From a virus, in IMG/VR virus record IMGVR_UViG_3300020442_000005, positions 209,026-273,025 of that record: 64,000 nt of DNA. One strand, written 5' to 3'. Shown here piece after piece: positions 31,112 to 55,655 of this stretch. The notes under the pieces are model-generated. The model was not told the origin of the DNA, searched no databases, and saw nothing but the letters and a program-made list of their open reading frames with translations. The translations under genes were made by a program, and so were the position numbers. The first letter of the stretch is position 1, and the number at the start of each line of letters is the position of its first letter.

Positions 31112-31336
31112 ATGCAATTTTTGGGAGACAACATATATGGATTTAGGCCGGGCCAAATTATATACTATGCAAAAAGTCATTTGGCTTTACTGATTAAGCC
31201 TGAAGACGGTGAAGACGTATGGCAGCCGGGTTTGTTCGTAAGATATTTAAACGGATCAAAAGAAAACTGTATAATAACAGACATACACGGAACGAAACTC
31301 GAATGTCCTACATATATGATCCAGAAGGTGTACTAG
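31112..31336 (+). CDS. small SH3-like protein, 74 aa
   Basis: GFRPGQIIYYAKSHLALLIKPEDG and LFVRYLNG fit a small barrel, like the next gene. ATG 31112 lies nine bases after GGGGG; ATG 31108 in another frame leads only to a 12-codon dead end. Confidence 0.65.
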   Translation: MQFLGDNIYGFRPGQIIYYAKSHLALLIKPEDGEDVWQPGLFVRYLNGSKENCIITDIHGTKLECPTYMIQKVY

Positions 31337-38459: not shown

Positions 38460-39302
38460 ATGAATACAATTAAAATGCTCAATCCCGAGACAAATGAAGT
38501 CTCAAACGTCCCAGCTGTACAAGTAACAGATTATCTCGTTTCCGGCTGGATCATCACTGAAGGCGCGCTTACTGAATGGTGGGAAACCCAAGGCAAAGAA
38601 ATCTATGATGACGAGCCTACGGAAACTTACTACGAAGAGGACGTCGACGCCAACGAAGCAATCGATCGCGATTTTGCGGCTGCTGTCTTTGAAGACGAGA
38701 CGGACCAAGCTCCGGAGCATACCAAAGAAAATGTTATCCAGGCTCTTCTCGACAACAACATTCTCAATGCGGCTGTTGCTCACCTTGGCGACTTGCAAAC
38801 TGCTGACGAGCTAGCTGCTGGCGTGACTAGTCACAATAACGGCGCCGGCTTCTCAGCCGCATATGCGCGCACCGGTCGTCGATTGTGGCAATGGGTTACT
38901 GGTAAAGACGCTAAGTCGATGGAAGAACGTTGGGACAAGAAGTGTCTCAGCCATACTCGAGCCAACGCAGCTTTTCAGCGCCAAGTTCGCAACTATGATT
39001 TTGATACGGCTGTAGAGCTGGCAAGATATGTTTGTTCGTTTCACTGGCGTCAACTGTCTCATATTCTTGAGCCTGATTTCGCAGGAATGGATCTACCAAA
39101 AGTGGATGAGAAAAAGCGAAACAACTTCGTGCCATCAAAGTGGCTTGATATTACCGGTGCAAAAGTGCTAACAATCAAAGGCAACGGTACACAAATCTTG
39201 TGGGACAGCCGAAAGATCTGGCTTCCTTCTAGCCAGTTTAAGAATGCAAACGGTAAGATGAGTATTCCTATGTGGTTGGCTCAGAAGAATGACATGATTT
39301 AA
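38460..39302 (+). CDS. hypothetical protein, 280 aa
   Basis: Acidic N-terminal third (residues 45-90), a helical middle with HNNGAGFSAAYARTGRRLWQW, and a beta-rich C terminus (GAKVLTIKGNGTQILWDSRKIWLPSSQ), perhaps a small nucleic-acid-binding fold. Own leader and own terminator, so it is a single-gene unit. Codon choice suggests good expression. No family recognised. Confidence 0.8.
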   Translation: MNTIKMLNPETNEVSNVPAVQVTDYLVSGWIITEGALTEWWETQGKEIYDDEPTETYYEEDVDANEAIDRDFAAAVFEDETDQAPEHTKENVIQALLDNNILNAAVAHLGDLQTADELAAGVTSHNNGAGFSAAYARTGRRLWQWVTGKDAKSMEERWDKKCLSHTRANAAFQRQVRNYDFDTAVELARYVCSFHWRQLSHILEPDFAGMDLPKVDEKKRNNFVPSKWLDITGAKVLTIKGNGTQILWDSRKIWLPSSQFKNANGKMSIPMWLAQKNDMI

Positions 39303-39324
39303 GGATCGACTTGTTCTGTCGACG

Positions 39325-39348
39325 GGAGGTGCTTGCACCTCCTTTTTT
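39325..39348 (+). terminator. rho-independent terminator
   Basis: GGAGGTGC (39325-39332) and GCACCTCC (39335-39342) form a perfect stem with a CTTG tetraloop, followed by six T. Confidence 0.92.
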
Positions 39349-39420: not shown

Positions 39421-40227
39421 ATGAAAAATTATGTTTTAAGAAAAATCATATCAAATTTGATTGTTGAGAACTTTAAGGTCAGAGGTTATATAAAGCCGGC
39501 TGAGAGTTTTCACTCCCTTGGCGAATTACAGGCCATGGCAAATTATGTTTTAAATCTTCAGCGTGCTGGCTATGACGCGAGGGATAAAAATTCTGGACTG
39601 TTATTGAATTTGCTCTACGAATATATGCCCCATATTGAAGACGATATAGAAAGATACGGTGCGAGATTTGACATAACAAATGTATATAACTTTTTAGAAG
39701 ATTTTGCAAACCATCGAGTCTGGTCCTTTGAAGACCAGTTTGGCCAATATTTCCCGGACATAGGTAGTTTAAGATTCTCGTATTTTTATTCTAGGGGAGA
39801 CATGGAACCATATGTGCTTCTGGATGAGAACTACACAAAGCAATTGTATGGATCCACAGATAATGTATACACTGTGAAACATTATACTACCGAAGCTGGA
39901 TTGCAAAACATAGAAGCATCAATCCAAACTGGAAAACCTTTTGATATATCATGCTTCACTGCCATGAAAAAGGAATACTTTGACAAGAAATCAAATATTT
40001 TATTGACGCTCAAAGGTAACGTGAGGGCTGGCTTTAGATCTGACGTAAAATCTTTTGCTGTCGACAACGGTAGGAGAGCATGCAACTTATTTAGACTCGG
40101 ATATCCGGGGGAAGAAACAAATATCTGCGAAAACTTAGATGGATGCGAAGACAATGCTACGTCTATTTGGAATGAATATATCGCGACACCATTAGAAATT
40201 ATCAAAGTAGAGGTATTAAACAGATGA
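39421..40227 (+). CDS. putative packaged ADP-ribosyltransferase-like protein
   Basis: The N terminus MKNYVLRKIISNLIVENFK is a targeting peptide with I-V-E as cut site. Residues 150-268 fit the ART fold by order: VKHYTTEAGLQNI (His-Tyr-Thr strand and following helix), GKPFDISCFT (aromatic/Ser-Thr strand), ILLTLKGNV, and NEYIATPLEIIKVEV with the Glu where ARTs place the catalytic Glu. T4 Alt is a packaged ART that modifies host RNA polymerase; a similar role is inferred. First gene of the array. Confidence 0.72.
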   Translation: MKNYVLRKIISNLIVENFKVRGYIKPAESFHSLGELQAMANYVLNLQRAGYDARDKNSGLLLNLLYEYMPHIEDDIERYGARFDITNVYNFLEDFANHRVWSFEDQFGQYFPDIGSLRFSYFYSRGDMEPYVLLDENYTKQLYGSTDNVYTVKHYTTEAGLQNIEASIQTGKPFDISCFTAMKKEYFDKKSNILLTLKGNVRAGFRSDVKSFAVDNGRRACNLFRLGYPGEETNICENLDGCEDNATSIWNEYIATPLEIIKVEVLNR

Positions 40228-40580
40228 GAACATGGAAACCATTATTTTTTGAAAACAGTTCGCTGCCATTGATTCTTTCCGTAGTGGCGCCAATTGATAT
40301 CGGAGCTATCACACTTGGACCATTCGTATTTTCGCGTGGAGAAATGTCTGAGGTCACTAAAAATCATGAAGCAATCCATTGGCAGCAATATATAGAAACC
40401 GGGATTATTGGTTTTGTGTTGCTATACTTGCTTTACTGGGTGATTGGTTTGATAAAATACAGAGATGGACAAAAGGCATACTACCAGATACCCTTTGAAC
40501 AAGAGGCATATGAAAATCACGAGGATATGGAATATTGCCTAACCAGAAAAAGATATGAATGGTTCCGGAGAAGCATCTAA
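40224..40580 (+). CDS. HExxH membrane protein, metallopeptidase-like
   Basis: KNHEAIHWQQ near residues 50-60 is an HExxH zinc motif, followed by a membrane helix (IGFVLLYLLYWVIGLI) and IPFEQEAYENH, whose first Glu may be the third ligand. The pattern HExIHxxQ...FExEAY is known from small membrane proteins of bacteria and phages without assigned function. It is the only gene of the array without the targeting peptide. Overlaps both neighbours (ATGA, TAATG). Confidence 0.78.
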   Translation: MRTWKPLFFENSSLPLILSVVAPIDIGAITLGPFVFSRGEMSEVTKNHEAIHWQQYIETGIIGFVLLYLLYWVIGLIKYRDGQKAYYQIPFEQEAYENHEDMEYCLTRKRYEWFRRSI

Positions 40581-42157
40581 TGTGGCAGCTAAGAAAATAC
40601 ATACGGAATTTATTGTTTGAAAATTTATCAGACGCAACTATTCCACCTCCACCAAAGGAATCAATCGAAGAGTTAAGTTCGGTTATTAACCAGTACTACG
40701 ACCGTGTTAACGATGATTCTGTTCAGTACGATTTAGACGAAAGGATGGAATTGCTGTTTAACGAAGTGGTCGAAAAGAACAGTGGGGAAAACGTTGTTGA
40801 ATATGTCAAGGAACTAAAGACGCATCCACTGGAAATAGTGTCAGCACTCAAGGAATACTTTGCAAGAAAAAGACCCGAAGATGTCGCCGCAGATTTTGGT
40901 ATTGACTGGAAGAGTGATAGCGTTGATATGAAAACTATTAACAACAGTTATTCATATCCATCCGGTCACACTGCTCAATCTTATTATGTTGCACTTAAAC
41001 TATGTGATAGATATCCACAGCTTAGGAATGAGTTGTTTGAAGTAGCAGAAGCAGTTGCGCAATCTAGAATCGATCGTGGCGTACATTTTCCTTCTGATTT
41101 AGATGCTGGTCGAATTGTAGCAAATCAGCTATACCAACAAAATAAAACAAGCACTCCTGTAATTCTTGAGGGCATGGTAAGTCCAAACTCCGTATCAGGA
41201 AAATATGCAATATGGGCAGACATATCAGCGGATCAGGCTGGAAACCTCGACGAAGATTTGACGTCAATTGATTTTCTAATGTACGACTGGTCTGCCGCGG
41301 TTAAACACATTGAAGACGAGCTCAAAGAAGCCACCGCAGACGGTCGCCCAGGCGCACTAGAAATGGTCAGGGACTACGGGATTCTTGAAGCCATTACAGA
41401 TAGCGCTGTTGCATGCATGCGAGTGAGACCGTACGGCGATTACGAAGGATGCAATAGTGCTTGGGAAGTTATTAGATCAGCGGCAGATGGCGGTTTGGGT
41501 CCGACAATGTACGATTTAATTATGTCAATCGCTCCGAATGGTTTGTTTGCTGATAGATCAGAAGTTTCTCCGGCTGCTCAAAGTGTGTATCATTTTTATG
41601 CAAACAGACGAACCAGCGTAGATAAAGATTTTCTCGACCCGGGTGGATTCACAGATACAGAATATGATGACTGTAGGACCTACGGTCGCAGAGCTGATCC
41701 GTTACGTTATGCGACTAGAATGATGGCAATGGATTATTTTGATACCGAATGGCCAGACGAGCACACTCAGTTTAAGGACAATGCTGACCTTTCAGTTCTA
41801 GAACAAGCCGGCAGCGGAGATGCTGACACCTATTTCAGAGTTGTGTCAGAATGGATTATTGATAATGTGGATCCCGACTGGGATGAAGATACCTGGTACG
41901 AATGGAAAGTAGACGGTGAGCTTGATCTAATGCGTTATTGGAAGTCCGGCCCAGATCCAACCTTCGAAGATCCGGATTATTTAAATCTTTCGTACAATAC
42001 AAACTATGCGGTTTCTAGTTTCGAAGAGATGGAAGAAAACCATATGGCATTTATAAATGAAATATCAGATATGATACCAGGCTCAGAGGAAAGATTTTAT
42101 GAAGATCCCGAAGCCTTACATTTTGCTGTCAGAGATTTTTTCAGGGAGAGAGTTTGA
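40580..42157 (+). CDS. packaged PAP2 / class A acid phosphatase
   Basis: 525 residues starting MWQLRKYIRNLLFENL, a targeting peptide with L-F-E. All three PAP2 signature motifs follow: KEYFARKRP (K91, R98, P99), PSGH (127-130) and SRIDRGVHFPSD (R163, catalytic H169, D173). Such enzymes remove phosphate from small molecules, lipids or polyisoprenyl phosphates through a phospho-His. No membrane helices surround it, so it is the soluble type. The C-terminal 330 residues are acidic, with many Trp and Tyr, and unknown. Its presence in the packaged set suggests phosphate removal from a host metabolite at entry. Confidence 0.88.
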   Translation: MWQLRKYIRNLLFENLSDATIPPPPKESIEELSSVINQYYDRVNDDSVQYDLDERMELLFNEVVEKNSGENVVEYVKELKTHPLEIVSALKEYFARKRPEDVAADFGIDWKSDSVDMKTINNSYSYPSGHTAQSYYVALKLCDRYPQLRNELFEVAEAVAQSRIDRGVHFPSDLDAGRIVANQLYQQNKTSTPVILEGMVSPNSVSGKYAIWADISADQAGNLDEDLTSIDFLMYDWSAAVKHIEDELKEATADGRPGALEMVRDYGILEAITDSAVACMRVRPYGDYEGCNSAWEVIRSAADGGLGPTMYDLIMSIAPNGLFADRSEVSPAAQSVYHFYANRRTSVDKDFLDPGGFTDTEYDDCRTYGRRADPLRYATRMMAMDYFDTEWPDEHTQFKDNADLSVLEQAGSGDADTYFRVVSEWIIDNVDPDWDEDTWYEWKVDGELDLMRYWKSGPDPTFEDPDYLNLSYNTNYAVSSFEEMEENHMAFINEISDMIPGSEERFYEDPEALHFAVRDFFRERV

Positions 42158-43368
42158 TGGCAAATAAAAGAATACCAAGAAAGAAGGGTCAAAGAAGAAA
42201 CAGTAAAAAGCATTCTGATCTGTACACTGATGAAAACCCAAAAGGAACTATAAAAGGTTTGAAGTTTGCGACTGTCAAAGATGCAAAGGCTAGCGTGAGT
42301 AAAATTAAAAAGTCCTCGCGTTCACATAATCACAAGACACAAGCTGCAATTGCAATGGAACAACGAGCAAAAGCAGCCGGCAAGAAATCGGCTGCAGCAG
42401 TTTATAGAAAGTTTATTGAGCAACAAAAGAAGAAAACTAAAGCAAAAAACGAAACTACGAGGGCTGATCTGTTTTTGGATAGACCAACGTCTCATGTTGA
42501 CTACGACGAGTCTGTAAACGATCAAATAGCTGATTACATGGTCGATATGATGCTTATCAGAGAATACATACGGGACATTATTGTTGAGAATATGGTTTCT
42601 GTTGCAGGCGATACTATGATAACAAAGTTCAGGGAGCTTATCAATCGGTACGACGCACCAACGGGGTGGCAAGTCGAGGATCCACATTTCTTTGAGTCCG
42701 GTGGAGGAAATAGCTTGATTGGCCAAATACGTTTGCAAGGCACAAGGGAAGCACTTCCGAATCTTGACAGTGAGGTCGAAAAGCAAAAACTAAGCGCAAT
42801 ATACGCTCCATTTGCAAACCGCCGAGGTTGGAATCTTCTTCAAGTACGTGAGGAACCATTGCCATCTAGAAACCCAATTATTATGTACGAGTTAAAGTTT
42901 GATAAACAACCAAACACAAAAAATACAAACTATTTCATGTCAACTCAAGAACTACAAATCAAAGAGCAAGTGCTTCTTCATCTTACTAAGGAAAGTTATC
43001 TAAAGTCAATTCAGTCAGGCGGTTTTAAACCGGCAAGAAGCTCGTCAGACGGAATAAACTTTGGTAACGGCCGAGCCTATTTTGTATCGTGCTCTAGAAT
43101 GGATTGGGAAGATTCAAGAGATGCTGCAATTGGCTGGTTTTCTCGCGCGACAGAAACTGAGGGTTTTGCTGGAATCGACCCAACAGAAAAGCAAGTCTTG
43201 TTGGTAATTGATCCAGAGAAGATGAGGAACAACATACAATTTTACGTTGATACAGAATTTGGCTACGGTTCGGGTACAGTAGGTTATTCCGGAGTTTGGG
43301 GCGGGAAAGCAATTTATACCCCGGGGCACATACGGGCAACTGCAATTGAAGAGGTTATAGATTTATGA
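42157..43368 (+). CDS. fusion: phage basic domain + internal targeting peptide + ART-like domain
   Basis: Residues 1-95 contain HSDLYTDENPKGTIKGLKF, SVSKIKKSSRSHNHKTQAA and SAAAVYRKFIEQQKKKTK, a small basic domain I know from other large phages. Residues 131-144 then read MMLIREYIRDIIVE, the targeting peptide, placed internally. The rest is ART-like: LLHLTKESYLKSIQSGGF, NGRAYFVSCSRM (Tyr-Phe-x-Ser) and a final IEEVIDL Glu. ATG 42157 follows GGGAGAG. An internal start near 42547 lacks a good ribosome binding site, so a fusion cut inside by the protease is more likely. Confidence 0.75.
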   Translation: MANKRIPRKKGQRRNSKKHSDLYTDENPKGTIKGLKFATVKDAKASVSKIKKSSRSHNHKTQAAIAMEQRAKAAGKKSAAAVYRKFIEQQKKKTKAKNETTRADLFLDRPTSHVDYDESVNDQIADYMVDMMLIREYIRDIIVENMVSVAGDTMITKFRELINRYDAPTGWQVEDPHFFESGGGNSLIGQIRLQGTREALPNLDSEVEKQKLSAIYAPFANRRGWNLLQVREEPLPSRNPIIMYELKFDKQPNTKNTNYFMSTQELQIKEQVLLHLTKESYLKSIQSGGFKPARSSSDGINFGNGRAYFVSCSRMDWEDSRDAAIGWFSRATETEGFAGIDPTEKQVLLVIDPEKMRNNIQFYVDTEFGYGSGTVGYSGVWGGKAIYTPGHIRATAIEEVIDL

Positions 43369-44129
43369 GCACACTTAGAAAAACAATACGAAAAATATTA
43401 CTAGAGTCGGCTGTGTTGGCGGACGAACAGGCAATTGCCGTAATGAAAAAAGAAGATTTGATCTTCGTAGTTAGCATGTTAGCACCTTATGAAGGAACTA
43501 TAGCTCTTTTGCGAAGGAAATACTATGACATCGAAAACGACGATTACAACCTGTCCGATGCGGTTGGGCAGATTCAATTAGGTTCTGCGGGCGAAGAAAC
43601 AATGCAGGTTTCATTCTCTGAACTTTACCGTCAATTTCGAAACAAAGGTCTGGGCAAGCTATTATATAACGTTGCTTTGATGGCATGCACTGACGAAAAC
43701 GTTTGGCTTATGTCTGACAGGAACGATGTTTCATCCAAGGCTCAAAGGATTTGGCAAACTTGGAGCAAGCTTCCTGAATTATATGATATCGAGCAAATGG
43801 ATCATGACATGATAGGCGATGATTATTTTTTGACTGATGACGAAGATGATGATATGGTGCAAAACTCTTTCAACAATGACCAATGGCGTCCGGTATCCCC
43901 TCGAATCGAGCGCTTGCCTGACGAAGCGTACACAAGTCACGAGATGTCCGACGGTCGTTTTTTCACGGTTGAAAAAGATTCATGGTTCTTCTATGACCCA
44001 GATTACAAAAAACAGTATTTGGATTCTGGATTAACAAAAAGATTCCAGATGAAAGATGCGTACGCATTGTCAAGTTATCTAGAACAAGAAGGTTTACTTT
44101 ACTACTCGTACGAGGGACCTGCTTCATGA
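43365..44129 (+). CDS. packaged GNAT-like protein (most canonical copy)
   Basis: Targeting peptide MSTLRKTIRKILLESA. Residues 85-135 give the clearest acetyltransferase motif of the family: VSFSELYRQFRNKGLGKLL (R-x-x-G-x-G acetyl-CoA loop) followed by LMSDRNDVSSKAQRIWQTW, the SDRxxVSxxAxxxW strand-helix that all eight copies keep. GNAT enzymes move an acetyl group from acetyl-CoA to amines or proteins. A C-terminal acidic region (150-250) is unknown. ATGA overlap on both sides. Confidence 0.78.
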   Translation: MSTLRKTIRKILLESAVLADEQAIAVMKKEDLIFVVSMLAPYEGTIALLRRKYYDIENDDYNLSDAVGQIQLGSAGEETMQVSFSELYRQFRNKGLGKLLYNVALMACTDENVWLMSDRNDVSSKAQRIWQTWSKLPELYDIEQMDHDMIGDDYFLTDDEDDDMVQNSFNNDQWRPVSPRIERLPDEAYTSHEMSDGRFFTVEKDSWFFYDPDYKKQYLDSGLTKRFQMKDAYALSSYLEQEGLLYYSYEGPAS

Positions 44130-44740
44130 AAAATTTAAGACGATACATAAGGAGCACGCTTTTAACTGAGGTTTGTGCCGGTGCAACAGCGCAGATTCAG
44201 AAAGGTCTAGACGTTATTGAACAAAGAGACCTTAGAGTTGAAGTCTACATAGATGGAAACGATGGATATGATGTGATTCTAGTGTCAGGAGATGGGATAA
44301 GACGTGGACGGTTTGAGGTTACGACAGTCAAGAATTGCCCGGCTTATTCGACTATGTGGACCGAAGTTGATTGGAATCTAAAAAAAACCGGCGTTGGGGC
44401 TGTAATGTATGACATTGCAGTAGAGGTTGCTACAAAACTTGGCGGACACTTGGCGTGTGATAGAGGATCTGTGAGCGATTCCGCGAAGCGCATGTGGAGA
44501 TACTATACTTCATCGGATGATTACGAAGCATTCCAGTTAGACACACCAGACTCTACTTTTACGCCGATAAAAAGTGATGATTGTCAACAGTACATTTTTC
44601 ACAGAGAAACAAAATTATATAGTGGTGATGAAGGTTTCGAACAAGAATTTATGGCATCGCCTTTTACAAAAGCTTTTCGAAAAAAGAAAATAACGACAAT
44701 TCCATGTTTGGGTAATCGATACTCGGAGATTAGAGTATGA
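44126..44740 (+). CDS. packaged GNAT-like protein, copy 2
   Basis: MKNLRRYIRSTLLTEV is the targeting peptide (L-T-E). The core reads KKTGVGAVMYDIAVEVATKLGGHLACDRGSVSDSAKRMWRYY: the GxG loop is kept without the basic residue found in canonical GNATs. The tail has SPFTKAFRKKK, similar to the SxLSKRYxKxP ending of other copies. Confidence 0.75.
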   Translation: MKNLRRYIRSTLLTEVCAGATAQIQKGLDVIEQRDLRVEVYIDGNDGYDVILVSGDGIRRGRFEVTTVKNCPAYSTMWTEVDWNLKKTGVGAVMYDIAVEVATKLGGHLACDRGSVSDSAKRMWRYYTSSDDYEAFQLDTPDSTFTPIKSDDCQQYIFHRETKLYSGDEGFEQEFMASPFTKAFRKKKITTIPCLGNRYSEIRV

Positions 44741-45693
44741 AAAATTTAAGACAATACATAAGAAAGATTTTGATAGAGTCTGCCAATACAATACACCCAA
44801 AGATTAAAAGCATGCTTGACGAGCTAGAAGAAAATTATGGAGAGATTAACATCCAAAATTATCCCAACCAGGGGCAACTTGTTGAGATAAGGTTTTATGC
44901 TGGCGCTCAGCATGGTGATAGGTATTATAACACTGGTGTTGGCGGTGGATCTGATGCTGGCGCCGTGTTCGCAATGTATTCCAAGGATAGTGTTGTTCCA
45001 TCTATGTCTACGAAAATAGGCAATTGCAATGGTGCAGTGCCCATCGGTGGTGTAGATGGCAGTCAGATCGCAGTAGAATATGGCTTTGGTCCGTTGCTTT
45101 ATGATGTTCTTTTTGATGCGGCAGTTATGCTGAGTGGAGCTACTGGGCTGACTTGCGATTACTATTCCGTAAGCGACGAAGCATACAACGTTTGGAATTA
45201 TTATCTAAAAAACCGGCCAGATATGATTGCAAAACAAAAAGACTTGACACAATATCCTCGCACTCCCGATGAATCCGATGATTGTACCGGGCCTGGTGCC
45301 GGCGGAAGTTTTGGATATAGATCCGTTGCGAAGCGGTTCGGCTTTGATAAATCTTACGGTGTAAAAGCGTCAGACAAGGATGGCATGCCGGTCCGGACCG
45401 GAGAACTTACACCGGAGTTTATCGATCATTGGTTCGACCCGGAAAACCCTCTTTCGAAAACCTATCATAGGAAAAGCGGTGGCACACCGGTCATCGATTA
45501 CTTGCGATCAAATTTTCTTTTAAACCCTAAGGCTGCAAAAGTCATAGGGCAACCGTACTCTCCGGCTGAGCTAAAAAAAGTATGGGACAGAACCATAGGC
45601 ATAGAAGAGGCCGGATATCCAGATTACATGGCAAAAAAAGCAAAGCAATGGCAGCAAAACTTTGGAGCAAACGCCGAGGATCTATTAGCATGA
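44737..45693 (+). CDS. packaged GNAT-like protein with extra C-terminal domain, copy 3
   Basis: MKNLRQYIRKILIESA targeting peptide. The core EYGFGPLLYDVLFDAAVML...TCDYYSVSDEAYNVWNYY is the family pattern with Pro after GxG. Compared with other copies it has about 100 extra residues at the end, with a Tyr/Pro-rich segment. ATGA overlaps on both sides. Confidence 0.75.
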   Translation: MKNLRQYIRKILIESANTIHPKIKSMLDELEENYGEINIQNYPNQGQLVEIRFYAGAQHGDRYYNTGVGGGSDAGAVFAMYSKDSVVPSMSTKIGNCNGAVPIGGVDGSQIAVEYGFGPLLYDVLFDAAVMLSGATGLTCDYYSVSDEAYNVWNYYLKNRPDMIAKQKDLTQYPRTPDESDDCTGPGAGGSFGYRSVAKRFGFDKSYGVKASDKDGMPVRTGELTPEFIDHWFDPENPLSKTYHRKSGGTPVIDYLRSNFLLNPKAAKVIGQPYSPAELKKVWDRTIGIEEAGYPDYMAKKAKQWQQNFGANAEDLLA

Positions 45694-46382
45694 ACCAATT
45701 GAGAAATTACATAAGGCAAGTTTTAGTTGAAATGGCTGCACCGCGACCAATTGACTTAGATGCTGTATATTATCATGGGACACCTACGAAGGCAAATGCC
45801 GAGGATATAATGATCAATGGTATAAAGGCACCTGATTTGTCGTCCAGAGAAGGCTATCTTCGACCAGTTGAAGGAAAAGTTTATCTCACAAGAGATTTGG
45901 CATACGCTCAAATCTATGCTTTGGGCGGTGACCTTGCAGGCAAAAATGTTCCTGATTCGTTTAAGGGATATGGACAATACGGGTATGTTTTTGTTGTCGA
46001 CGGCAAACAGCTAAAAGACATACAACCAGATGAAGACAGTGTTGGCGAATTGGTATATAACGAGGAAATAGATTGGCTTGATGAGTTAGCTAAGGATATC
46101 CTTAAATACGAAGAATACGATGACTTCGGGCAGGATCTTGGCTATAGAAACCTTTACGATGCGATAATTGGCGGCGAATACGACGCATGGGCTGCCGGAG
46201 GCAAAATTTTGTTAGATGAAATGTCTGATGATCAAAAACTTAATCTACTCGATTATGGTGCCCATGTTGCACACACAGGAAATCTCATACCAAAAGAAAC
46301 ATGGAGAATAGAAAGAAATAAAACACCCGAATTGCAGAAAGATGGTTCGAACTTTTTTGATCTAGCGGAGCGGATAAAGTGA
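45690..46382 (+). CDS. packaged ADP-ribosyltransferase-like protein
   Basis: MNQLRNYIRQVLVEMA targeting peptide (L-V-E). AVYYHGTPTKANAEDIMINGI places His29 in the YHGT strand typical of KptA/DUF3990-type ARTs; GKVYLTRDLAYAQIYA is the Tyr-x-Thr strand and following helix; a candidate catalytic Glu lies in VGELVYNEEIDW. These three strands define the NAD-binding H-Y-E group. The target is unknown. ATG 45690 overlaps the previous stop. Confidence 0.8.
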   Translation: MNQLRNYIRQVLVEMAAPRPIDLDAVYYHGTPTKANAEDIMINGIKAPDLSSREGYLRPVEGKVYLTRDLAYAQIYALGGDLAGKNVPDSFKGYGQYGYVFVVDGKQLKDIQPDEDSVGELVYNEEIDWLDELAKDILKYEEYDDFGQDLGYRNLYDAIIGGEYDAWAAGGKILLDEMSDDQKLNLLDYGAHVAHTGNLIPKETWRIERNKTPELQKDGSNFFDLAERIK

Positions 46383-47050
46383 AAGTGTTAAGGCAATACG
46401 TAAGACAGATACTTCTGACAGAAGCAATGAAAACAGAAACGGATCTACCCGACGATATCGGCGTTGAAATTTACGATTATAAAAAATCGGCTGCCTATAT
46501 TGGCTTTTGCGAAATTGATAAAAACGGAAATTACGTAAAAAGTTTATCTCCCGGACTTGAAGTAGCTGAAAATACAATTTTTAGTTCAGAACCAGAACCT
46601 TTACCCGAGAAGTTTCGGCATCCCTCCGGTATTTTTGGCACCGTTGGAATAGAACTATTGAGAGACTGGGGAGATCCGGACTGTGATGGCGCATGGATCA
46701 TAACTAACACGGTAGCGACACCAGGCTACGGTCCATTACTTTACGATGTTGCAATTGAATGGGCTACCATGCATGGCACCGGCCTTGTGTCTGATCGATA
46801 TAATGTTTCAGATGACGCGCGAAAAGTTTGGGCAAAGTATGCGGCACGGATTGATGTCGACAAGTTTCAATGTGACGACGAAAACAATGCATTAACACCT
46901 ATTGACTCTGATAACTTAGAGCAACATGCCGCAAGGAAAAACTTGCCAGGTGGTTCAGACTTTACCAGTAGTCCTTTGAGCAAACGCTATTCAAAGAGTC
47001 CCACAAGAATAAATAGCCTTAAGTCCCTCAGAAAACTGTTTTTTACATAA
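46379..47050 (+). CDS. packaged GNAT-like protein, copy 4 (GTG start)
   Basis: GTG 46379 overlaps the previous stop (GTGA) and gives MKVLRQYVRQILLTEAMKT. The core is TPGYGPLLYDVAIEWATMHGTGLVSDRYNVSDDARKVWAKY (two runs joined in the gene), the tail SSPLSKRYSKSPTRI. LLTEAMKTxxDLPDDI directly after the peptide is shared by copies 4, 5, 7 and 8, so these form a subfamily. Confidence 0.76.
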   Translation: MKVLRQYVRQILLTEAMKTETDLPDDIGVEIYDYKKSAAYIGFCEIDKNGNYVKSLSPGLEVAENTIFSSEPEPLPEKFRHPSGIFGTVGIELLRDWGDPDCDGAWIITNTVATPGYGPLLYDVAIEWATMHGTGLVSDRYNVSDDARKVWAKYAARIDVDKFQCDDENNALTPIDSDNLEQHAARKNLPGGSDFTSSPLSKRYSKSPTRINSLKSLRKLFFT

Positions 47051-47063
47051 ATGAGATTACAAA

Positions 47064-47894
47064 ATGAAATACTTACAACAATATATAAGGCAGCTGCTCA
47101 TAGAAGTATACGAACTGGATGACCAGCAGAAAGTGAATAGGGATAGTCTAATCAGAATGGACTACGGTGGAAAAGAAATGGCACACGTTGCGGGTCTAGA
47201 CACGGCTGAAGAACAACGTGAAGATCGGGAACTTCTTCGAAGATATCAAGAAGGACTGCTGTCTACAAGCCATGGTAAAAAATTGATTAGAGCCTTTCGA
47301 AACGGTGACGTCACGATCTTGCATGATATCACATACGAGGGCGCCGCGGCAAGATCAGGTTTAGGAGGAACAAAAAATAAAAAAGCTTTAGCTTCTGACT
47401 GGATCCGTAAATATGGAAGATCTGGTAACGACACTCTCTCGACAATTGCTTGTTATCTTCCTCCTACCGAGTCACTTCCCGGCATAGAACTCCATGGTAA
47501 TTCCAAGTTTGTCATGTCTAACAGGGGAATGATCATGAAAGGTTATCCAGTATTTGTTGCAAAAGAAGATGTGATGTCACAGACGATCGGCGCATTAGAC
47601 GACAAAATGAAAGCACACTGGAAAACCTCCGGCATGCCAAAGAGGCCGGCAAAATCTAGAGTACGATTCGATGATTTTGGTGATATGGAAGGAATCCAGG
47701 GCTTGCGGCATCTTAAAAAGTTGCTTGTATCCAATGAAACTCTTCTAGATAATTGGACAATAATAGGCACATACATTGGTAGTAGTGGAAATTCTGACAA
47801 TGATGTACAAGCATGGATAGCAGATTCCCTTAGCCTTGGATTGCCCTGTAACGTATATAATCAATATGGCAACCTAACGAGGTATGAACCATGA
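47064..47894 (+). CDS. packaged ART-like protein, family B copy 1
   Basis: MKYLQQYIRQLLIEVYEL targeting peptide. Close paralogue of the protein at 53804: shared YELxxxxK, GDVTILHDITYEG, DTLSTIA, RGMIMKGYPVFV, DVMSQTIGA and LLDNWTIIGTYI. The order His strand, LS strand, GYPV strand and a final E-x-L-L-D-N-W strand would fit a divergent ART fold (inference). The function is unproven. Confidence 0.72.
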   Translation: MKYLQQYIRQLLIEVYELDDQQKVNRDSLIRMDYGGKEMAHVAGLDTAEEQREDRELLRRYQEGLLSTSHGKKLIRAFRNGDVTILHDITYEGAAARSGLGGTKNKKALASDWIRKYGRSGNDTLSTIACYLPPTESLPGIELHGNSKFVMSNRGMIMKGYPVFVAKEDVMSQTIGALDDKMKAHWKTSGMPKRPAKSRVRFDDFGDMEGIQGLRHLKKLLVSNETLLDNWTIIGTYIGSSGNSDNDVQAWIADSLSLGLPCNVYNQYGNLTRYEP

Positions 47895-48604
47895 AAAACT
47901 TAAGAGAATACATAAGACAAATACTGACTGAATCAGCATATAACAGACGAGACGCGTTCATCGCGGATTTATCCAGCGCAAATTTCGATCATCACTACCG
48001 TGAAAAAGGACAAGATGATGAGGCGTATAGACGGATGTCTGCCACTGGACGTCAACTAAAGAAGGCTTTTACTTCACACGCGGACAGGGATTGGCTGAAC
48101 AGTCTAGTATATGTCCACTGGACAAGAAAGAGACGAAAAGCACTTGCGTTTCTTGCCCCGGAAATAATTAAAGATGTAAGGGTTCAATCTTCACGCGATG
48201 AATTAAGCACAATGGTGTATAAACCTGGCGCTGTGGATGGAAGCGGTTATGATTTCGGCAAATACGGATTACTTATTCGTGGCTTTGTTACACTGTTAAG
48301 CAACGACATGAACTCCGTTGATAGTGGGTACACAGGAGGCTACGCACAAGCCGATCCACAAAGGGTAGCCTCGTCCGGTGCGAATAAGGGGATTGGAGTA
48401 GCAGTCGTTGACGACATAGCTTTAGATGAGAGCGAATGGGCTCCTGTCTTCGACGGAGGCGGTAACGAAGCATTCGTCGACAACTGGAATATTTATGGAG
48501 TGATTGTTCCAGACGAAGAACACGAAACGTTTTCTAGATTCCTAGAAAAAATCAAACAACAAACAGGAAGAGAATACTTATTACTAAAAGGGAGTGAACT
48601 CTGA
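47891..48604 (+). CDS. packaged ART-like protein, family C copy 1
   Basis: MKNLREYIRQILTESAYN targeting peptide. Paralogue of the protein at 52052: shared SLVYVHW, RDELSTMVYKPG, GLLIRGFVTLLSNDMN and EAFVDNWNIYGVIV. The strand order parallels family B (VHW for ILHD, LIRGFV for IMKGYPV, VDNWNI for LDNWTI), so B and C are probably distant relatives in one ART-like group. Confidence 0.72.
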   Translation: MKNLREYIRQILTESAYNRRDAFIADLSSANFDHHYREKGQDDEAYRRMSATGRQLKKAFTSHADRDWLNSLVYVHWTRKRRKALAFLAPEIIKDVRVQSSRDELSTMVYKPGAVDGSGYDFGKYGLLIRGFVTLLSNDMNSVDSGYTGGYAQADPQRVASSGANKGIGVAVVDDIALDESEWAPVFDGGGNEAFVDNWNIYGVIVPDEEHETFSRFLEKIKQQTGREYLLLKGSEL

Positions 48605-49035
48605 TGAAAAAATTACGTAAATTTATAAGAAAAACATTGCTCAACGAGAATCCAGGCGCAAAGTTTGGTTTAGACAAATGGACTTACGACTCGTATCTAG
48701 ATAAAATTGCAGATTTAATCATGAGCGGTAAACTTGGGCTGATGGAATCTGGTCTTATGATGGCAGAGACATATGGATTAATCGAGGATAAGCCGCCCTT
48801 TAAGGTCGTGAATGAAATTGAGGGTCCTTACAATTACGGATTGACTTTTATATCAAAGAACCTATTCCTTGTCGATGTGACCATACTGGATCCGGATCTT
48901 GGAAACCGGATTTGGGCAAAAAGAAATGCCAGGAATGCACCTATGATCCAAGAGCCACCAACACACGGACCAGCGGCACGTCAGCCTTTACAGTTTCCGC
49001 TGCGCATCATATTTGGATATCTGGAAAGAGAATAA
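48604..49035 (+). CDS. packaged protein of unknown function, 143 aa
   Basis: MKKLRKFIRKTLLNENPG targeting peptide (L-N-E). The rest is a single small domain with a beta-rich centre (PYNYGLTFISKNLFLVDVTIL) and a Pro-rich stretch. ATG 48604 shares its A with the TGA of the previous gene. No match recognised. Confidence 0.75.
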   Translation: MKKLRKFIRKTLLNENPGAKFGLDKWTYDSYLDKIADLIMSGKLGLMESGLMMAETYGLIEDKPPFKVVNEIEGPYNYGLTFISKNLFLVDVTILDPDLGNRIWAKRNARNAPMIQEPPTHGPAARQPLQFPLRIIFGYLERE

Positions 49036-49038
49036 ACC

Positions 49039-49668
49039 ATGAAGTACTTGCGGCAATACATAAGAAAGATACTTTTGACGGAAGCGATGAAAACACCAGC
49101 AGATCTGCCGGATGACATCGTCGTTGTAATTGACGCCGATAGTAAAGAAGCATCAATTTATTATGGTCTGGCCAATAATCCTTCCGAGTACGCACCTGAG
49201 CTGAAACCTGAGCTCTATGGTCTCAGCTCAACCGACTACATGGGCGCGATAGACATATATTCACCAGCAAAGGGGCTTTTTTATCCTTGGTATGGGAATT
49301 GTGGCGACGCTTGGATGGTCGGCGGCTCTGCTGCTCAAGAAGGCTTCGGGCCTTTGCTCTATGATATAGCAATTGAGTGGGCTACACAAAATGGTGGTGG
49401 ACTTATTTCTGACAGAAGCAGCGTATCCCCCGATGCTCAGGACGTTTGGTCCTACTACGAACGAAACAGAGATGACGTAACAGCCCATCAGCTTGATGAC
49501 CTTGAGAATACTCTTACACCTGAAGATGAAGATAACTGCGATCAAAAGATTGGCAGGTCAACCGTATCGGGGATGTATGATACCTGGCAAGATAGTCAAT
49601 TAAGTAAGCGTTATACAAAGCCACCAACAACAATGCAAGCGCTTGGCAAAAAACTGGTGATCCTATGA
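49039..49668 (+). CDS. packaged GNAT-like protein, copy 5
   Basis: MKYLRQYIRKILLTEAMKT targeting peptide. Core AQEGFGPLLYDIAIEWATQ and GGGLISDRSSVSPDAQDVWSYY. It is strikingly similar to copy 7 (51441) over the last 70 residues (DDVTAHQLDDL, TWQDSQLSKRYTKPPTTM, LVIL), also at DNA level, so this is a recent duplication. Confidence 0.77.
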   Translation: MKYLRQYIRKILLTEAMKTPADLPDDIVVVIDADSKEASIYYGLANNPSEYAPELKPELYGLSSTDYMGAIDIYSPAKGLFYPWYGNCGDAWMVGGSAAQEGFGPLLYDIAIEWATQNGGGLISDRSSVSPDAQDVWSYYERNRDDVTAHQLDDLENTLTPEDEDNCDQKIGRSTVSGMYDTWQDSQLSKRYTKPPTTMQALGKKLVIL

Positions 49669-50336
49669 AACAATTACGGCAATACATAAGAAAGACTCTT
49701 CTTACGGAAGCAATGAAGATGCCGGCTGATCTCACAGAGAACATGTATGTTCTTATCGAAGAGAATCGCGCAGGTGACTACTTTGAAGTTACGATTAATG
49801 ATGCAAAACCAGCACAAAGATACCCAAGATCTGGCATAATAGCGGAGCTGATGGTCGGAAAGGCAGAGGACCACAACGGCCTGAATTGTGATGGAGCTTG
49901 GGTAATCATGAGTTCCGAGGCAGAGCAAGGTTATGGTCCTCTAGTTTATGACATTGCAATGGAATACGTTGGAGACGATGGGCTAATGTGCGATCGATCC
50001 GATGTGTCCTTCGAAGCTGCAGATGTTTGGGATTTTTATCTTAATTCTAGACCCGACGTCAAAGCGGTGCAGCTTGATTTTCACGAAAAACCTTTCCTCA
50101 CTCCAGATAACATGAAAGATGATTGCGACGGCCAAGTTACCCTAGCCAGGCACGTTGATAGATGGTCAAGTATGGAAGCTGGATTCGACCCTGACGATCC
50201 GTACCATAATCACCAATGGATGGATCATTGGTCGACAAAGAAATATGTTAAGCAGGGGACACCTATAATGGACGAGCTTAGGATGCGAGGGGCAATCTAT
50301 TTCGACAGGGATGACACCGGTCACTACTACTTTTAA
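49665..50336 (+). CDS. packaged GNAT-like protein, copy 6
   Basis: MKQLRQYIRKTLLTEAMKM targeting peptide. Core AEQGYGPLVYDIAMEYVGDD and GLMCDRSDVSFEAADVWDFYL. The C-terminal part differs from the other copies and has a long acidic/aromatic stretch (HVDRWSSMEAGFDPDD), related to that of copy 3 (PEFIDHWFDPENP). Confidence 0.76.
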   Translation: MKQLRQYIRKTLLTEAMKMPADLTENMYVLIEENRAGDYFEVTINDAKPAQRYPRSGIIAELMVGKAEDHNGLNCDGAWVIMSSEAEQGYGPLVYDIAMEYVGDDGLMCDRSDVSFEAADVWDFYLNSRPDVKAVQLDFHEKPFLTPDNMKDDCDGQVTLARHVDRWSSMEAGFDPDDPYHNHQWMDHWSTKKYVKQGTPIMDELRMRGAIYFDRDDTGHYYF

Positions 50337-50365
50337 CTTAGTAAACAATGAGGCAAAAGACAGCA

Positions 50366-50857
50366 ATGAAACTACTAAGAGGGACAATCAGAAAAATACT
50401 TCTGCAAGAGATGGCTCAAAGACCACCCCATATCCCAACAACTGATCCTGAAATGGAAAGAAAAGTTGCGGATTTATTAACAGGCACCATACGAGACATA
50501 GCTCTGGGTGTAGAGTTTATGAAGACTATAGACCTTACTAAAGGCGTGAAAGCCCCCGATTCATACATAAAATTTGATATCGGCCGGAAGAAAATTAAAA
50601 TGACTGAATATCACTTCAAGGTCACCCAATCTTTTTACGATGCGATCGTGGACCAACTTAAAATCAAACGACGTAAAGCCAACCCAAAGTATCACCATCA
50701 TTTGATGATTGGCCGATGGACCGAGGGTGACGCTATAATTTCAATCTCGATACCGTATGACCTCATTGGACGCGACAAATACAGAGCGGTCATGTTACGG
50801 TCTGACGAACCATACGTCGAGCACTTGCACATTGAAATTAAAGAGCCGGCTGGGTAA
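50366..50857 (+). CDS. packaged protein of unknown function, 163 aa
   Basis: MKLLRGTIRKILLQEMAQ targeting peptide (L-Q-E). A beta-rich body includes YHHHLMIGRW and ISISIPYDLIG, with a triple-His turn that could bind metal. ATG 50366 is chosen by motif alignment; an in-frame ATG lies at 50348 without a clear ribosome binding site. Confidence 0.72.
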   Translation: MKLLRGTIRKILLQEMAQRPPHIPTTDPEMERKVADLLTGTIRDIALGVEFMKTIDLTKGVKAPDSYIKFDIGRKKIKMTEYHFKVTQSFYDAIVDQLKIKRRKANPKYHHHLMIGRWTEGDAIISISIPYDLIGRDKYRAVMLRSDEPYVEHLHIEIKEPAG

Positions 50858-50871
50858 TTAGGAAAGCCACA

Positions 50872-51441
50872 ATGAAAAATTTACGACAATACATAAGACG
50901 GATAATAAGCGAAGCCTTAGATGGAAGTGGCAATCAGCAAGAAGCAGCGTACGCTGTAATATACACCGCTGGTTACCTCGACTCATCTGACAGAGGGCTT
51001 GGTCAGCTTATCAACAAAAATCCAAAGCTTGGCGAGCAGGGTGATAAGTGGATTCCGCTCGATGATGCCCTTGCTAACGTGCATTCTGCTTTAATTGCAG
51101 CGGCTTCTGCTATTAAAAGAGAAAATCCAGAACTCGACCTTTCGGAGGAGAGTAGTATTCTTCGAGAGGGTCAGGCTGCTGGTCAGGCAGACTTCCGCGA
51201 AAGCATATACAAGTACATTGAACAAGTAGAATCTCTTGTCAATAGAGAATCGCCTATGGGAATGAGTGCTGCTGAAGGCTTGAGAGTCTTTGGAGTCAAA
51301 ACTCTGTCTCCCGGGGTTACGCTGGCAGATACCGCAGTCGCAGACGTGAGAGATCTGATCTCTTTAATGGACGACGACAATGTTCTGAGCTGGCTGGACG
51401 AAGTTGAAACCATGAAACAGTACGGTGAGCTCAAACTATAA
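50872..51441 (+). CDS. packaged all-helical protein, 189 aa
   Basis: MKNLRQYIRRIISEALDG targeting peptide (I-S-E). The remainder is an Ala/Asp/Leu-rich helical bundle with no aromatic core motif. No family recognised. Its stop shares bases with the next start (TAATG). Confidence 0.74.
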   Translation: MKNLRQYIRRIISEALDGSGNQQEAAYAVIYTAGYLDSSDRGLGQLINKNPKLGEQGDKWIPLDDALANVHSALIAAASAIKRENPELDLSEESSILREGQAAGQADFRESIYKYIEQVESLVNRESPMGMSAAEGLRVFGVKTLSPGVTLADTAVADVRDLISLMDDDNVLSWLDEVETMKQYGELKL

Positions 51442-52055
51442 TGAAACATTTAAGAAATTACATAAGAAAGATTCTTCTAACTGAAGCAATGAAAACCCCA
51501 GCCATGCTACCAGATGACACTGTCATTGTAATAAAACCAGTACGTCATTATATAACAATTTATTACGGTAAAGCTGATAATCCTTCTAGTAAGAGTGGAA
51601 CTGATGGTGTTGGAATCCTTGGAACAATTTCTATATTTCCAACCGGTCGACGCTCACCGGACGGCTACTTTGTCGGACTTGGTAACTGCGATGGAGCTTG
51701 GATGGTCGGACTTGCAGCTGCATCCGACGGTTGGGGTCCGCTGTTATATGACGTCGCAATCGAATGGGCAACTCAAAACGGCGGAGGACTAATTTCCGAT
51801 CGTGGAGCTGTAAGTGTACCAGCTCAAAAAGTATGGTCCTACTACGAGCAAAACAGAGATGACGTGACAGCCCACCAGCTTGATGACCTCAATAATACTC
51901 TTACACCTGAGGAGGAAGATAACTGCGATCAATCGATTGGTAGGCGGACAATAACTGGTATGTATAATACCTGGCAAGACAGTCAATTAAGTAAGCGGTA
52001 TACAAAGCCGCCCACAACAATGAACGCATTAGGCGATAAACTAGTGATTTTATGA
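51441..52055 (+). CDS. packaged GNAT-like protein, copy 7
   Basis: MKHLRNYIRKILLTEAMKT targeting peptide. Core ASDGWGPLLYDVAIEWATQ and GGGLISDRGAVSVPAQKVWSYY. Near-duplicate of copy 5 in its second half; the N-terminal half has diverged more, suggesting different targets or a recombined origin. Confidence 0.77.
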   Translation: MKHLRNYIRKILLTEAMKTPAMLPDDTVIVIKPVRHYITIYYGKADNPSSKSGTDGVGILGTISIFPTGRRSPDGYFVGLGNCDGAWMVGLAAASDGWGPLLYDVAIEWATQNGGGLISDRGAVSVPAQKVWSYYEQNRDDVTAHQLDDLNNTLTPEEEDNCDQSIGRRTITGMYNTWQDSQLSKRYTKPPTTMNALGDKLVIL

Positions 52056-52774
52056 AGAACTTGCGGCAATACATAAGACAGACAATTCTCGAGAATAAGG
52101 AGGCATTTTTAGATGATCTCCTGTCAAATCCAAATTGGGATGAAGGTGCTCGCGATGCATTTAGTGACGAAACATACGATGACTATATTCAAAAATATCC
52201 TAAAGCCAGGAAACGCGGCAGATTAGTCAAGCAGGTGTGGGCTAAACACGTGGATAGAGAATATATTAATTCACTCATATACATTCACTGGGGCGGTATT
52301 TCAAGTATATACAATATTTTAAAATCGTCAATCGATGGCAGTCCAAAGAAGGATGAATTAGCATGCTCAGGTTATGAACCAGGAAAAGTCGCTGAAAGAA
52401 ACAGAGTCGGCAGTACAGGTTTGGTTATTGAAGGGCATGTCTCTTTGTTTGGAAACCACATGAACGACGTATTTTCAGGCGAGCTAGATCTAATTAAAAA
52501 GTTTAATCCAGAAATGGGTCCAACATCAGGCTACAACAGAGGTACTCTTTCGGCAATTGCCGACACGTTTATCTTGGACAGAGAATCTTTTATCCATCGA
52601 AACAATCCGGATCAAAACCGTACTGAGGCTTTTTTAGACAATTGGAAGATCAAAGCATTAGTGTTCGAGCCTGATAGTGATCTCTGGCGAGGTCAGGCGC
52701 AAAAGGATTTGGTAAATTCAATCCGCACAGAATTCAAGTTAGACATCCCCATCCTTAGACCTAGAGATCTGTAA
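52052..52774 (+). CDS. packaged ART-like protein, family C copy 2
   Basis: MKNLRQYIRQTILENKEAF targeting peptide (I-L-E). Paralogue of 47891: SLIYIHW, KDELACSGYEPGKV, GLVIEGHVSLFGNHMNDV and EAFLDNWKIKALVF. Conserved His, Glu-Leu and Glu-x-x-x-Asp-Asn-Trp positions mark the likely active site. Confidence 0.73.
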   Translation: MKNLRQYIRQTILENKEAFLDDLLSNPNWDEGARDAFSDETYDDYIQKYPKARKRGRLVKQVWAKHVDREYINSLIYIHWGGISSIYNILKSSIDGSPKKDELACSGYEPGKVAERNRVGSTGLVIEGHVSLFGNHMNDVFSGELDLIKKFNPEMGPTSGYNRGTLSAIADTFILDRESFIHRNNPDQNRTEAFLDNWKIKALVFEPDSDLWRGQAQKDLVNSIRTEFKLDIPILRPRDL

Positions 52775-53439
52775 TGAAACATTTGCGACAATACATAAGA
52801 GGAATACTTCTAACTGAAGGTATGAAAACAGAGGCCGATCTGCCTGACGGCATTGGTATTATAATCAGGCAAAGAGCCTGGGAAGACAATCCGTCTAATA
52901 TTGTAATATCGTACTACAACTTGAATACAGAATATCCTCTGGAAACCGACAGAGAAAACATCATCCCATGGGGTATGGTCACCCTCGGCTTAGTATATCC
53001 ATATGAGCCGGCATACAACGGGCAAGATGAACGTTTCAATCTCCCGGAAGATACTAGTAATCTTACATGCGGAAATGCTTTTCAGATTTTCACCACCGAT
53101 GCTGCTGATGGATGGGGTCCCTTACTTTATGACGTCGCAATCGAATGGGCTACAATGAATGGTAACGGACTAATATCTGATCGATCTGGCGTGTCCGAGG
53201 ATGCTCAAGCCGTTTGGGAATACTACATGTACAATAGACCGGACGTCCAAAAGTTCCAATGCGATGATCACTTAAACACCTTAACTGCCACGTTAGATGA
53301 TAACGTCGATATGAATATACCCATGGCTGACGGCCGCTCATATTTTCCGGAAGATTTAGAGAATGATCCCCTAGGAAAAAGATACACGAAGGAACCGACA
53401 CGGATAAGACAATTAGGCGATAAACTGGTGATCCGATGA
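52774..53439 (+). CDS. packaged GNAT-like protein, copy 8
   Basis: MKHLRQYIRGILLTEGMKT targeting peptide. Core AADGWGPLLYDVAIEWATM and GNGLISDRSGVSEDAQAVWEYY, tail LGKRYTKEPTRIRQLGDKL. Belongs to the DLPDxI subfamily with copies 4, 5 and 7. TAATG overlap with the previous gene. Confidence 0.77.
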   Translation: MKHLRQYIRGILLTEGMKTEADLPDGIGIIIRQRAWEDNPSNIVISYYNLNTEYPLETDRENIIPWGMVTLGLVYPYEPAYNGQDERFNLPEDTSNLTCGNAFQIFTTDAADGWGPLLYDVAIEWATMNGNGLISDRSGVSEDAQAVWEYYMYNRPDVQKFQCDDHLNTLTATLDDNVDMNIPMADGRSYFPEDLENDPLGKRYTKEPTRIRQLGDKLVIR

Positions 53440-53807
53440 AACACTTGCGGCAATACATAAGATTATTATTGGAAAATAACGACGAGATGATAGAGCACAT
53501 TAATGGAATCATCGAAGATTATAAGCTTAGTGATATAGGTCCGGACCACTGGAACCAACTTGACGATATGATCGAAGATATCTTCCCAGGCACAAAACCG
53601 CCAAACATGAAAGTCTGGTCTGCCGCCCATCCATTGAATGGTGAGGTTTTCGAATCGTATGTGACACAAGAAGAAGCCTTGACCGTTCACCTTAGAGATG
53701 CAAACATTGTGCCGGCCGATAATGATGGCACCGAAGTTCAAACGCCAGAGATTCTAGATTGGGATCCAACTGGATATGCTTACATTATGAGTTGGGAAAT
53801 CAAATGA
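53436..53807 (+). CDS. packaged protein of unknown function, 123 aa
   Basis: MKHLRQYIRLLLENNDEM targeting peptide (L-L-E). The body is acidic, with beta strands near residues 65-80 and at the end (YAYIMSWEIK). No family recognised. ATGA overlaps on both sides. Confidence 0.74.
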   Translation: MKHLRQYIRLLLENNDEMIEHINGIIEDYKLSDIGPDHWNQLDDMIEDIFPGTKPPNMKVWSAAHPLNGEVFESYVTQEEALTVHLRDANIVPADNDGTEVQTPEILDWDPTGYAYIMSWEIK

Positions 53808-54637
53808 AAAACTTGCGGCAATACATAAGAAAGATACTATCAGAAGTGTACGAGCTCACACCAGAAGAAGACAAGACTCGGCGAGAAGATTTTGCTTATC
53901 AATCTGCAGCTAGACGCTCCTTAGGCCTTCAAACATCGGCCGAGATTATAGAAGACAGGGAAGAATTGCAGAATTACCAGGCGCGACTTAAAAGCTCGAC
54001 GGAAGGTAAAGAACTAATCCGAAGATTTATGAAAGGAACAGACGTCACTATCATGCACAGCATAAACTATTCCGGATATGCTGCTTTAAGAGGTTATAAA
54101 TCCTTCGATAGAGTCGATAAAAGTATGCCTTTCCAAAGATGGATTGGGCAACACGGCCGAAAGGGAAAAGACGTGCTCTCATGTGTAGCATCCGACCAAC
54201 CGCTCGGTATGGACTTCTTAATCGGAAATGATAATCCAGCTGCAGCTCACGGATTCGGCTTCATTATGAAAGGATACCCGGTCTACATTTCCGAAACAGA
54301 CGTAATGTCTCAAACACTAGGAGCTATCCCGCCAGGTTTAGTAAAGCACCAAGAACAATCCGGTGTGGCAAAACGACCCGGTGACACTTCCGCAGGAATA
54401 ATCGAATTGGATTTCGGCTGGGCTGGAGAAGTGCTGCTCGACAACTGGACGATCATCGGCACGTACATGGATATAAGCGGCAACAATGATTTAGCTGTAT
54501 TTGAGACACTTGCTCGGGATTCGATCAGCATGTTCAAACCCGTCCCTTTCTATGTTTACGATGACGGATATTTTGTCGGCAAAATAACAGATAAAGATTC
54601 TATGTTTGAGGTAAGAGAAAAACTATTCGGATTTTAA
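53804..54637 (+). CDS. packaged ART-like protein, family B copy 2
   Basis: MKNLRQYIRKILSEVYEL targeting peptide (L-S-E). Paralogue of 47064 over its full length (DVTIMHSINYSGYAA, KGKDVLSCVA, GFIMKGYPVYI, DVMSQTLGA, LLDNWTIIGTYM). Last gene of the array. Confidence 0.73.
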   Translation: MKNLRQYIRKILSEVYELTPEEDKTRREDFAYQSAARRSLGLQTSAEIIEDREELQNYQARLKSSTEGKELIRRFMKGTDVTIMHSINYSGYAALRGYKSFDRVDKSMPFQRWIGQHGRKGKDVLSCVASDQPLGMDFLIGNDNPAAAHGFGFIMKGYPVYISETDVMSQTLGAIPPGLVKHQEQSGVAKRPGDTSAGIIELDFGWAGEVLLDNWTIIGTYMDISGNNDLAVFETLARDSISMFKPVPFYVYDDGYFVGKITDKDSMFEVREKLFGF

Positions 54638-55593: not shown

Positions 55594-55655
55594 CATTATA
55601 AGTGTAAGGAGAAACCTTGCAAGTAACTTTCAATCCTAGTAAAAGCGGAGTTCAT
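55594..55655 (+). promoter_or_regulatory. conserved early-type leader, copy 3
   Basis: CATTATAAGTGTAAGGAGAA then ACCTTGCAAGT, as in copies 1 and 2. TTG 55617 and ATG 55656 are again in frame, here with a longer leader peptide (MQVTFNPSKSGVH). Confidence 0.6.

Follow-up and report, generated by a model that had tools for sequence, protein, structure and literature searches.

What is the function of a short basic peptide that is repeated on twenty neighbouring genes of a single phage? The question is raised by a window of 64,000 bases (bases 209026-273025 of the 273,025-base record of a T4-related phage), in which 21 consecutive plus-strand open reading frames (ORFs), mostly with overlaps of 1-4 bases, occupy positions 39421-54637. 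The peptide, termed tag A (consensus MKxLRQYIRKxLLxE), is found on 20 of the 21 genes of this array, the sole exception being 40224-40580. The most economical reading appears to be a much enlarged version of the capsid-targeting system of T4, and from the sequence it is quite probable that tag A is a T4-type capsid-targeting leader with cleavage. Positions given below refer to the window, unless they are marked as genome positions of the complete record.

Tag A and the proteins that carry it

Nineteen of the array genes fit the pattern [LIVM][RQK].[YFT][IV][RK] within their first 14 residues, and 39421 possesses a diverged variant. In 2000 trials with whole-protein shuffles, no gene matched in 1968 and a single gene in 32. 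Every tag A (20/20) closes on [LI]-x-E, with Glu never replaced by Asp in the array, and the position of the final Glu slides from residue 13 to 17 of the tagged start while the end motif is retained. The same motif is present at residues 11-18 in 9 of the 56 window ORFs of at least 100 residues outside the array, two of which are proteins with the second tag class (tag B) discussed below. A sequence-only reading of this DNA had described a run of consecutive tagged genes and a peptide that always ends hydrophobic-x-Glu, and both descriptions are borne out by these counts. A pattern search of the complete genome, as proposed with that reading, confines tag A to this array. The tag of g04 starts at 42538, ~127 residues inside the long ORF 42154-43368, and that of 40583 (g03) is preceded by a short extension.

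At the DNA level, Ile8 of the tag is encoded by ATA in 17 of 18 cases, compared with a background of 37% across the array genes, and Tyr7 by TAC in 15 of 16. The codons of Leu4 (TTA/TTG/CTA/CTT) and Arg5 (AGA/AGG/CGG/CGA/CGT) differ synonymously. Codons 7-9 are more uniform than the protein needs, so that shared ancestry by recombination is likely, and a codon-level function is also possible.

The bodies behind the tag are mostly acidic, with isoelectric points (pI) of 4.1-5.9 (g15 is basic, pI 9.2), and fall into ~11 families. A GNAT-like family is common to nine array genes, counting the C-terminal part of 40583 (g03); two further families are pairs (47064/53804, 39% identical; 47891/52052, 30% identical), and seven other tagged genes have no relative inside the array. 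The claim that the bodies are unrelated therefore applies between the families and to these seven genes, and fails within the GNAT-like family and the two pairs. Among the domain assignments of the same reading, PAP2 is established for g03 (PF01569, E 1.1e-11, 45 bits against a cut-off of 27.2), and the Pfam search of the array proteins returned no match for GNAT. The ART assignment for g11 and g18 found no sequence match in Pfam or PDB, and the model, with a predicted local distance difference test (pLDDT) score of 39, was too poor for a fold search. The model of g13 (49039; predicted template modelling score, pTM, 0.78) displays the expected order of elements and Foldseek returns GNAT proteins for it repeatedly, none with E <0.001; a GNAT identity for the nine bodies is plausible from this model. 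A terminator-like hairpin lies just upstream, and the array appears to begin a new transcription unit. The features of the island are as follows.

38460-39302, plus strand: left flank of the island, conserved, 55.6% identical in the relative G007
39324-39343, plus strand: terminator-like hairpin, 8-bp stem and T-run, just upstream of the array
39421-40227, plus strand: g01, diverged tag MKNYVLRKIISNLIVE/N
40224-40580, plus strand: g02, the only untagged array gene, HExxH-like motif; phrog_15610 'protease', E 1.5e-27
40580-42157, plus strand: g03, tag MWQLRKYIRNLLFE/N, PAP2 phosphatase domain followed by a GNAT-family-like C-terminal part
42538-43368, plus strand: g04, tag MVDMMLIREYIRDIIVE/N, inside the longer ORF 42154-43368
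43365-44129, plus strand: g05, tag MSTLRKTIRKILLE/S, GNAT-like body family 1
44126-44740, plus strand: g06, tag MKNLRRYIRSTLLTE/V, GNAT-like body family 1
44737-45693, plus strand: g07, tag MKNLRQYIRKILIE/S, GNAT-like body family 1
45690-46382, plus strand: g08, tag MNQLRNYIRQVLVE/M, unique body
46379-47050, plus strand: g09, GTG start, tag MKVLRQYVRQILLTE/A, GNAT-like body family 1
47064-47894, plus strand: g10, tag MKYLQQYIRQLLIE/V, body family 2, paired with g21
47891-48604, plus strand: g11, tag MKNLREYIRQILTE/S, body family 3, paired with g18; homologues in G001, G006 and G007
48604-49035, plus strand: g12, tag MKKLRKFIRKTLLNE/N, unique body
49039-49668, plus strand: g13, tag MKYLRQYIRKILLTE/A, GNAT-like body family 1, model pTM 0.78
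49665-50336, plus strand: g14, tag MKQLRQYIRKTLLTE/A, GNAT-like body family 1
50366-50857, plus strand: g15, tag MKLLRGTIRKILLQE/M, unique body, pI 9.2
50872-51441, plus strand: g16, tag MKNLRQYIRRIISE/A, tag-B homologue at genome 10982
51441-52055, plus strand: g17, tag MKHLRNYIRKILLTE/A, GNAT-like body family 1
52052-52774, plus strand: g18, tag MKNLRQYIRQTILE/N, body family 3
52774-53439, plus strand: g19, tag MKHLRQYIRGILLTE/G, GNAT-like body family 1
53436-53807, plus strand: g20, tag MKHLRQYIRLLLE/N, unique body
53804-54637, plus strand: g21, tag MKNLRQYIRKILSE/V, body family 2
55617-56408, plus strand: right flank, KaiC/RecA-like ATPase, conserved, 76% identical in G007

A second tag class, tag exchange and the head genes

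Tag B, MKITKRQLRRIIKE (consensus MKIT[KR]RQL[KR]xIIxE), is present in at least 19 copies in the genome. With one mismatch allowed, its pattern gives 19 matches in the record and none when reversed, and all 19 open frames of 74-295 residues; tags A and B together mark ~40 proteins of the genome. Tag B was counted 17 times in G006 and 22 times in G007, with 0 in controls, and occurs in at least 118 viral stretches. Among the viral matches listed, 136 of 138 open a frame and 124 distinct sequences follow the tag. Across 84,980 prokaryotic genomes, just 8 stretches contain it, all from four metagenome-assembled genomes (MAGs); these stretches are runs of tagged genes, with an S77 protease in two of the four MAGs, and are thus probably misbinned giant-phage contigs. 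Tag B is phage-specific.

The second tag class and the exchange of tags are the strongest evidence of portability. At genome 133826, 1.4 kb past the capsid gene, tag B heads a GNAT-like body that is 49-55% identical to tag-A members of the array (E down to 1.5e-20), and at genome 10982 it heads a homologue of g16 (50872; E 7e-18). Homologues of g01 (39421) are untagged in G001 (44% identity over 243 residues) and possess a canonical tag A in a MAG contig, and of three contigs with a small protein near a gp32-like gene, two have it with tag A and one with tag B. The same body is thus met with tag A, with tag B or with none, which makes the label separable from the body, as the sequence-only reading had proposed in calling the tag portable. 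Between homologues of different phages, tag identity is 62-85%, as against 27-62% for the bodies.

Relatives were reached by the tag pattern. Other large records also hold tag A arrays, and tag A of relatives heads an RNase_T exonuclease, a zeta-toxin/AAA_33-like kinase, and NUDIX and HD domains; another such protein gives a weak ART match that is below the cut-off (PF18760, E 9e-4). In G007, the same two genes flank the island, and several array genes are without a counterpart there, which indicates a variable cassette in a fixed slot. A related-locus search with queries A2 and A3 yielded no confirmed relatives, and tblastn with the two tag peptides gave no match in phage records, the queries being probably too short or filtered. 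A literature search found no description of these tags, a result that does not prove that none exists. For the closest relatives in culture, virion proteomics was sought in a paper on Baltic Flavobacterium phages, in which the immuto phage is not named and mass-spectrometry terms do not occur.

The prohead protease for which the earlier reading had called is encoded in the complete record. This gp21-type S77 protease (PF03420, E 1.3e-27, genome 125487-125936) retains GELDHP and GISSRG, two conserved segments, and is accompanied in the genome by a capsid protein of the gp23 type (PF07068, E 9.8e-64). The head module runs in the order terminase, portal, protease, core proteins, scaffold and capsid, where the names terminase, portal, core and scaffold are based on gene order and annotated relatives. 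Alignment of the capsid protein places VLRE/A on the maturation site FLTE/A of T4 gp23 (residue 66), and the aligned site reads LLRE/A in G007, VLRE/Q in G006 and VLKE/S in G003. The five genes directly behind the capsid gene carry tag B, starting with MKIT or MKIS followed by KRQLKRIIxE, and a core gene of G003 shortly after the protease starts with MKVTKQQLKALIKE.

A proposed head-loading system and its alternatives

What we infer from these features is core docking, cleavage, packaging, ejection and a role as host effectors. The tag, as a basic amphipathic helix, would dock fresh cargo on the prohead core during head assembly, and the S77 protease would then cut behind the terminal [LI]-x-E; the mature cargo, freed inside the head, would be ejected along with the DNA. 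The island at 39421-54637 would represent a cargo cassette whose content varies (~11 body families here) while its place in the genome is conserved, and tag B a parallel label on at least 19 further proteins, giving ~40 candidate cargoes in all. That the cargo is ejected to act as effectors is reasonably likely.

In T4, gp21 cleaves at L/I-x-E, and the first ten residues of IPIII are enough for packaging; residues 4 and 7 of the leader count for targeting, and residues 8 and 10 for processing (PMC9026906). The leaders read from the T4 genome are MKTYQEFIAE/A for IPII and IPIII and MAKINELLRE/S for gp24. T-even phages possess diverse internal proteins with only the leader in common (PMC3012670), and at least ten internal proteins have been described in T-even relatives (PMC12373910). 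The tags resemble the capsid-targeting sequence (CTS) of T4 IPI, IPII and IPIII in being short N-terminal leaders with an [LI]-x-E end on otherwise unrelated proteins, in a genome that likewise holds an S77 protease and a gp23 capsid protein. MKTYQEFIAE and MKNLRQYIRK agree in having hydrophobic residues at positions 4, 7 and 8, although leaders of this length are too short for a homology test. Differences from T4 include two leader classes, the number of candidate cargoes (20 plus at least 19, compared with 3 in T4) and their kind, predicted enzymes here and small inhibitors in T4. Alt of T4 has a short N-terminal propeptide that is cut by gp21, and the enzyme is injected (PMC9026906); enzyme-sized cargo with such a propeptide is predicted here, although no Alt homologue was demonstrated in the array. 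phiKZ and SPN3US pack many proteins, and an S77-related protease cuts them after Glu (PMC5694885, PMC10052503). Their likeness to this giant phage extends to the protease and to the many packed proteins, which are predicted here; their propeptides, in contrast, are mostly long (>100 residues) and are not a portable tag shared by dozens of bodies.

Several observations weigh against the head-loading account. The tags are strongly basic and have no detectable homology to the T4 CTS, and the bodies are mostly acidic, unlike the basic internal proteins of T4. Some tags are internal (g04), which is unexpected for an N-terminal address, and the T4 late promoter TATAAATA is not enriched in the window or the head module. 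As the tags are mutually homologous, the 20 motifs are not independent tests. In every phage with these tags, the tagged proteins appear to be known from their genes only. Co-occurrence with the S77 protease was dropped as discriminating evidence: of the tag-B contigs with a length of 100 kb or more, 13 of 14 encode it, but a control set of viral contigs in this size range, chosen with a random 15-mer, scored 6 of 6, so that the protease is necessary for the hypothesis and not evidence for it.

The charge of the tag could be explained differently if the peptide were an intracellular localisation helix, which would take proteins to the inner membrane, the host nucleoid or a phage replication compartment, in a newly infected cell or a productive one, and whose final Glu would simply end the helix. 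The shape of a short basic amphipathic helix is generally suited to binding membranes or nucleic acids, many bodies resemble enzymes with host targets, and mostly acidic bodies fit a tag that supplies positive charge. A generic helix, however, needs neither L/I at -2 nor Glu at a sliding position, tag-B genes cluster beside the protease and capsid genes, and the motif equals the predicted cleavage site of the phage's own capsid protein; we regard this alternative as unlikely.

The nine genes of one family, the two other paired families and the constant codons TAC ATA AGA, which point to shared DNA ancestry, would also be expected if the tag were the conserved start of a single duplicated family whose bodies diverge fast. 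Such plain paralogue expansion is highly improbable, given at least ten other body families without detectable similarity (PAP2 among them), the clearly different folds (RNase_T, NUDIX, HD, P-loop kinase) behind the tag of relatives, and the bodies seen with the other tag or none, by which it was already disfavoured. Equally improbable is a nucleic-acid element, such as a translation-initiation or recombination site, in place of a peptide signal: TACATAAGA is conserved at the codon level in the array and ATA is frequent in other phages too, but the Leu4 and Arg5 codons vary synonymously, tag B shows the same features with other DNA, and the [LI]xE constraint acts at the protein level.

The T4-style targeting system may extend beyond this genome. 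The chances appear even that large T4-related phages possess a general head cargo-loading system with at least two interchangeable tag classes (A, B and perhaps M[RK][LF]KxLLxE) and ~40 enzymes per genome, in which some polyproteins are cut at internal tags and cargo is swapped by recombining the label onto any gene. If true, a short motif would predict from sequence which unnamed giant-phage proteins ride in the virion and enter the host, and hundreds of uncultured genomes would yield named candidates for effectors of anti-defence and host takeover. The internal-protein idea of T4 would grow from a handful in T-even phages to ~40 in a single genome among distant relatives of T4, and the tags would be a source of new, orthogonal packaging tags.

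Internal tags and further tagged genes

In g03 (40580-42157), VILE/GM follows the PAP2 domain at the same place as a tag-like segment of G007 (L028:12319-13503), IYIHKILFE/AM, which precedes a homologue of the C-terminal half of g03. Together, the two segments suggest a polyprotein of two domains, which the protease could separate. Tags between two domains instead of at the start are also observed at L028:5850-6980, L030:8658-9521 and window 42154-43368, and may reflect internal starts or internal cleavage. Conserved counterparts of the untagged g02, with 52-64% identity, lie close to the tag arrays of two other phages, G007 and G001 (L028:2893-3258; L030:1543-1911).

Outside the array, the window holds the following tag-B and tag-like genes.

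2353-2751, minus strand: tag-B-like protein MMKLTRTQIRRIILE/T, 132 residues
2748-3635, minus strand: tag-B protein MKITKRQLRQIIRE/S, 295 residues
3637-4056, minus strand: tag-like protein MKLRRAIRTVILE/A, 139 residues, C-terminal DUF5754
28396-28800, plus strand: tag-B protein MKITKSQLKRIIREE, 134 residues
28882-29262, plus strand: tag-B protein MKISKRQLRRIIKEE, 126 residues

A protein of 374 residues at window 29272-30396 has a tag-A-like start, MSEKILREYIKGLLL, with no [LI]xE directly behind it and no Pfam match. The MAG contigs L243-L250 (NHDW01000006.1, PBIO01000025.1, DJKT01000043-44.1, DUCW01000074.1) contain dense tag-B arrays, with ~15 tags in 8 kb in L249.

The 484-kb uncultured phage LR756508 (L026) displays a third tag candidate, M[RK][LF]KxLLxE, on several proteins at 25787-31663. 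These proteins have a YRGT/YRAS motif near the start and no Pfam match, and adjoin many tag-B-like proteins around the head genes. The head module of the same phage includes, as judged by eye, a bS21-like gene (L026:17804-18043), and that of Microcystis phage Mel-JY01 contains another, annotated as RpsU (L025:13110-13337).

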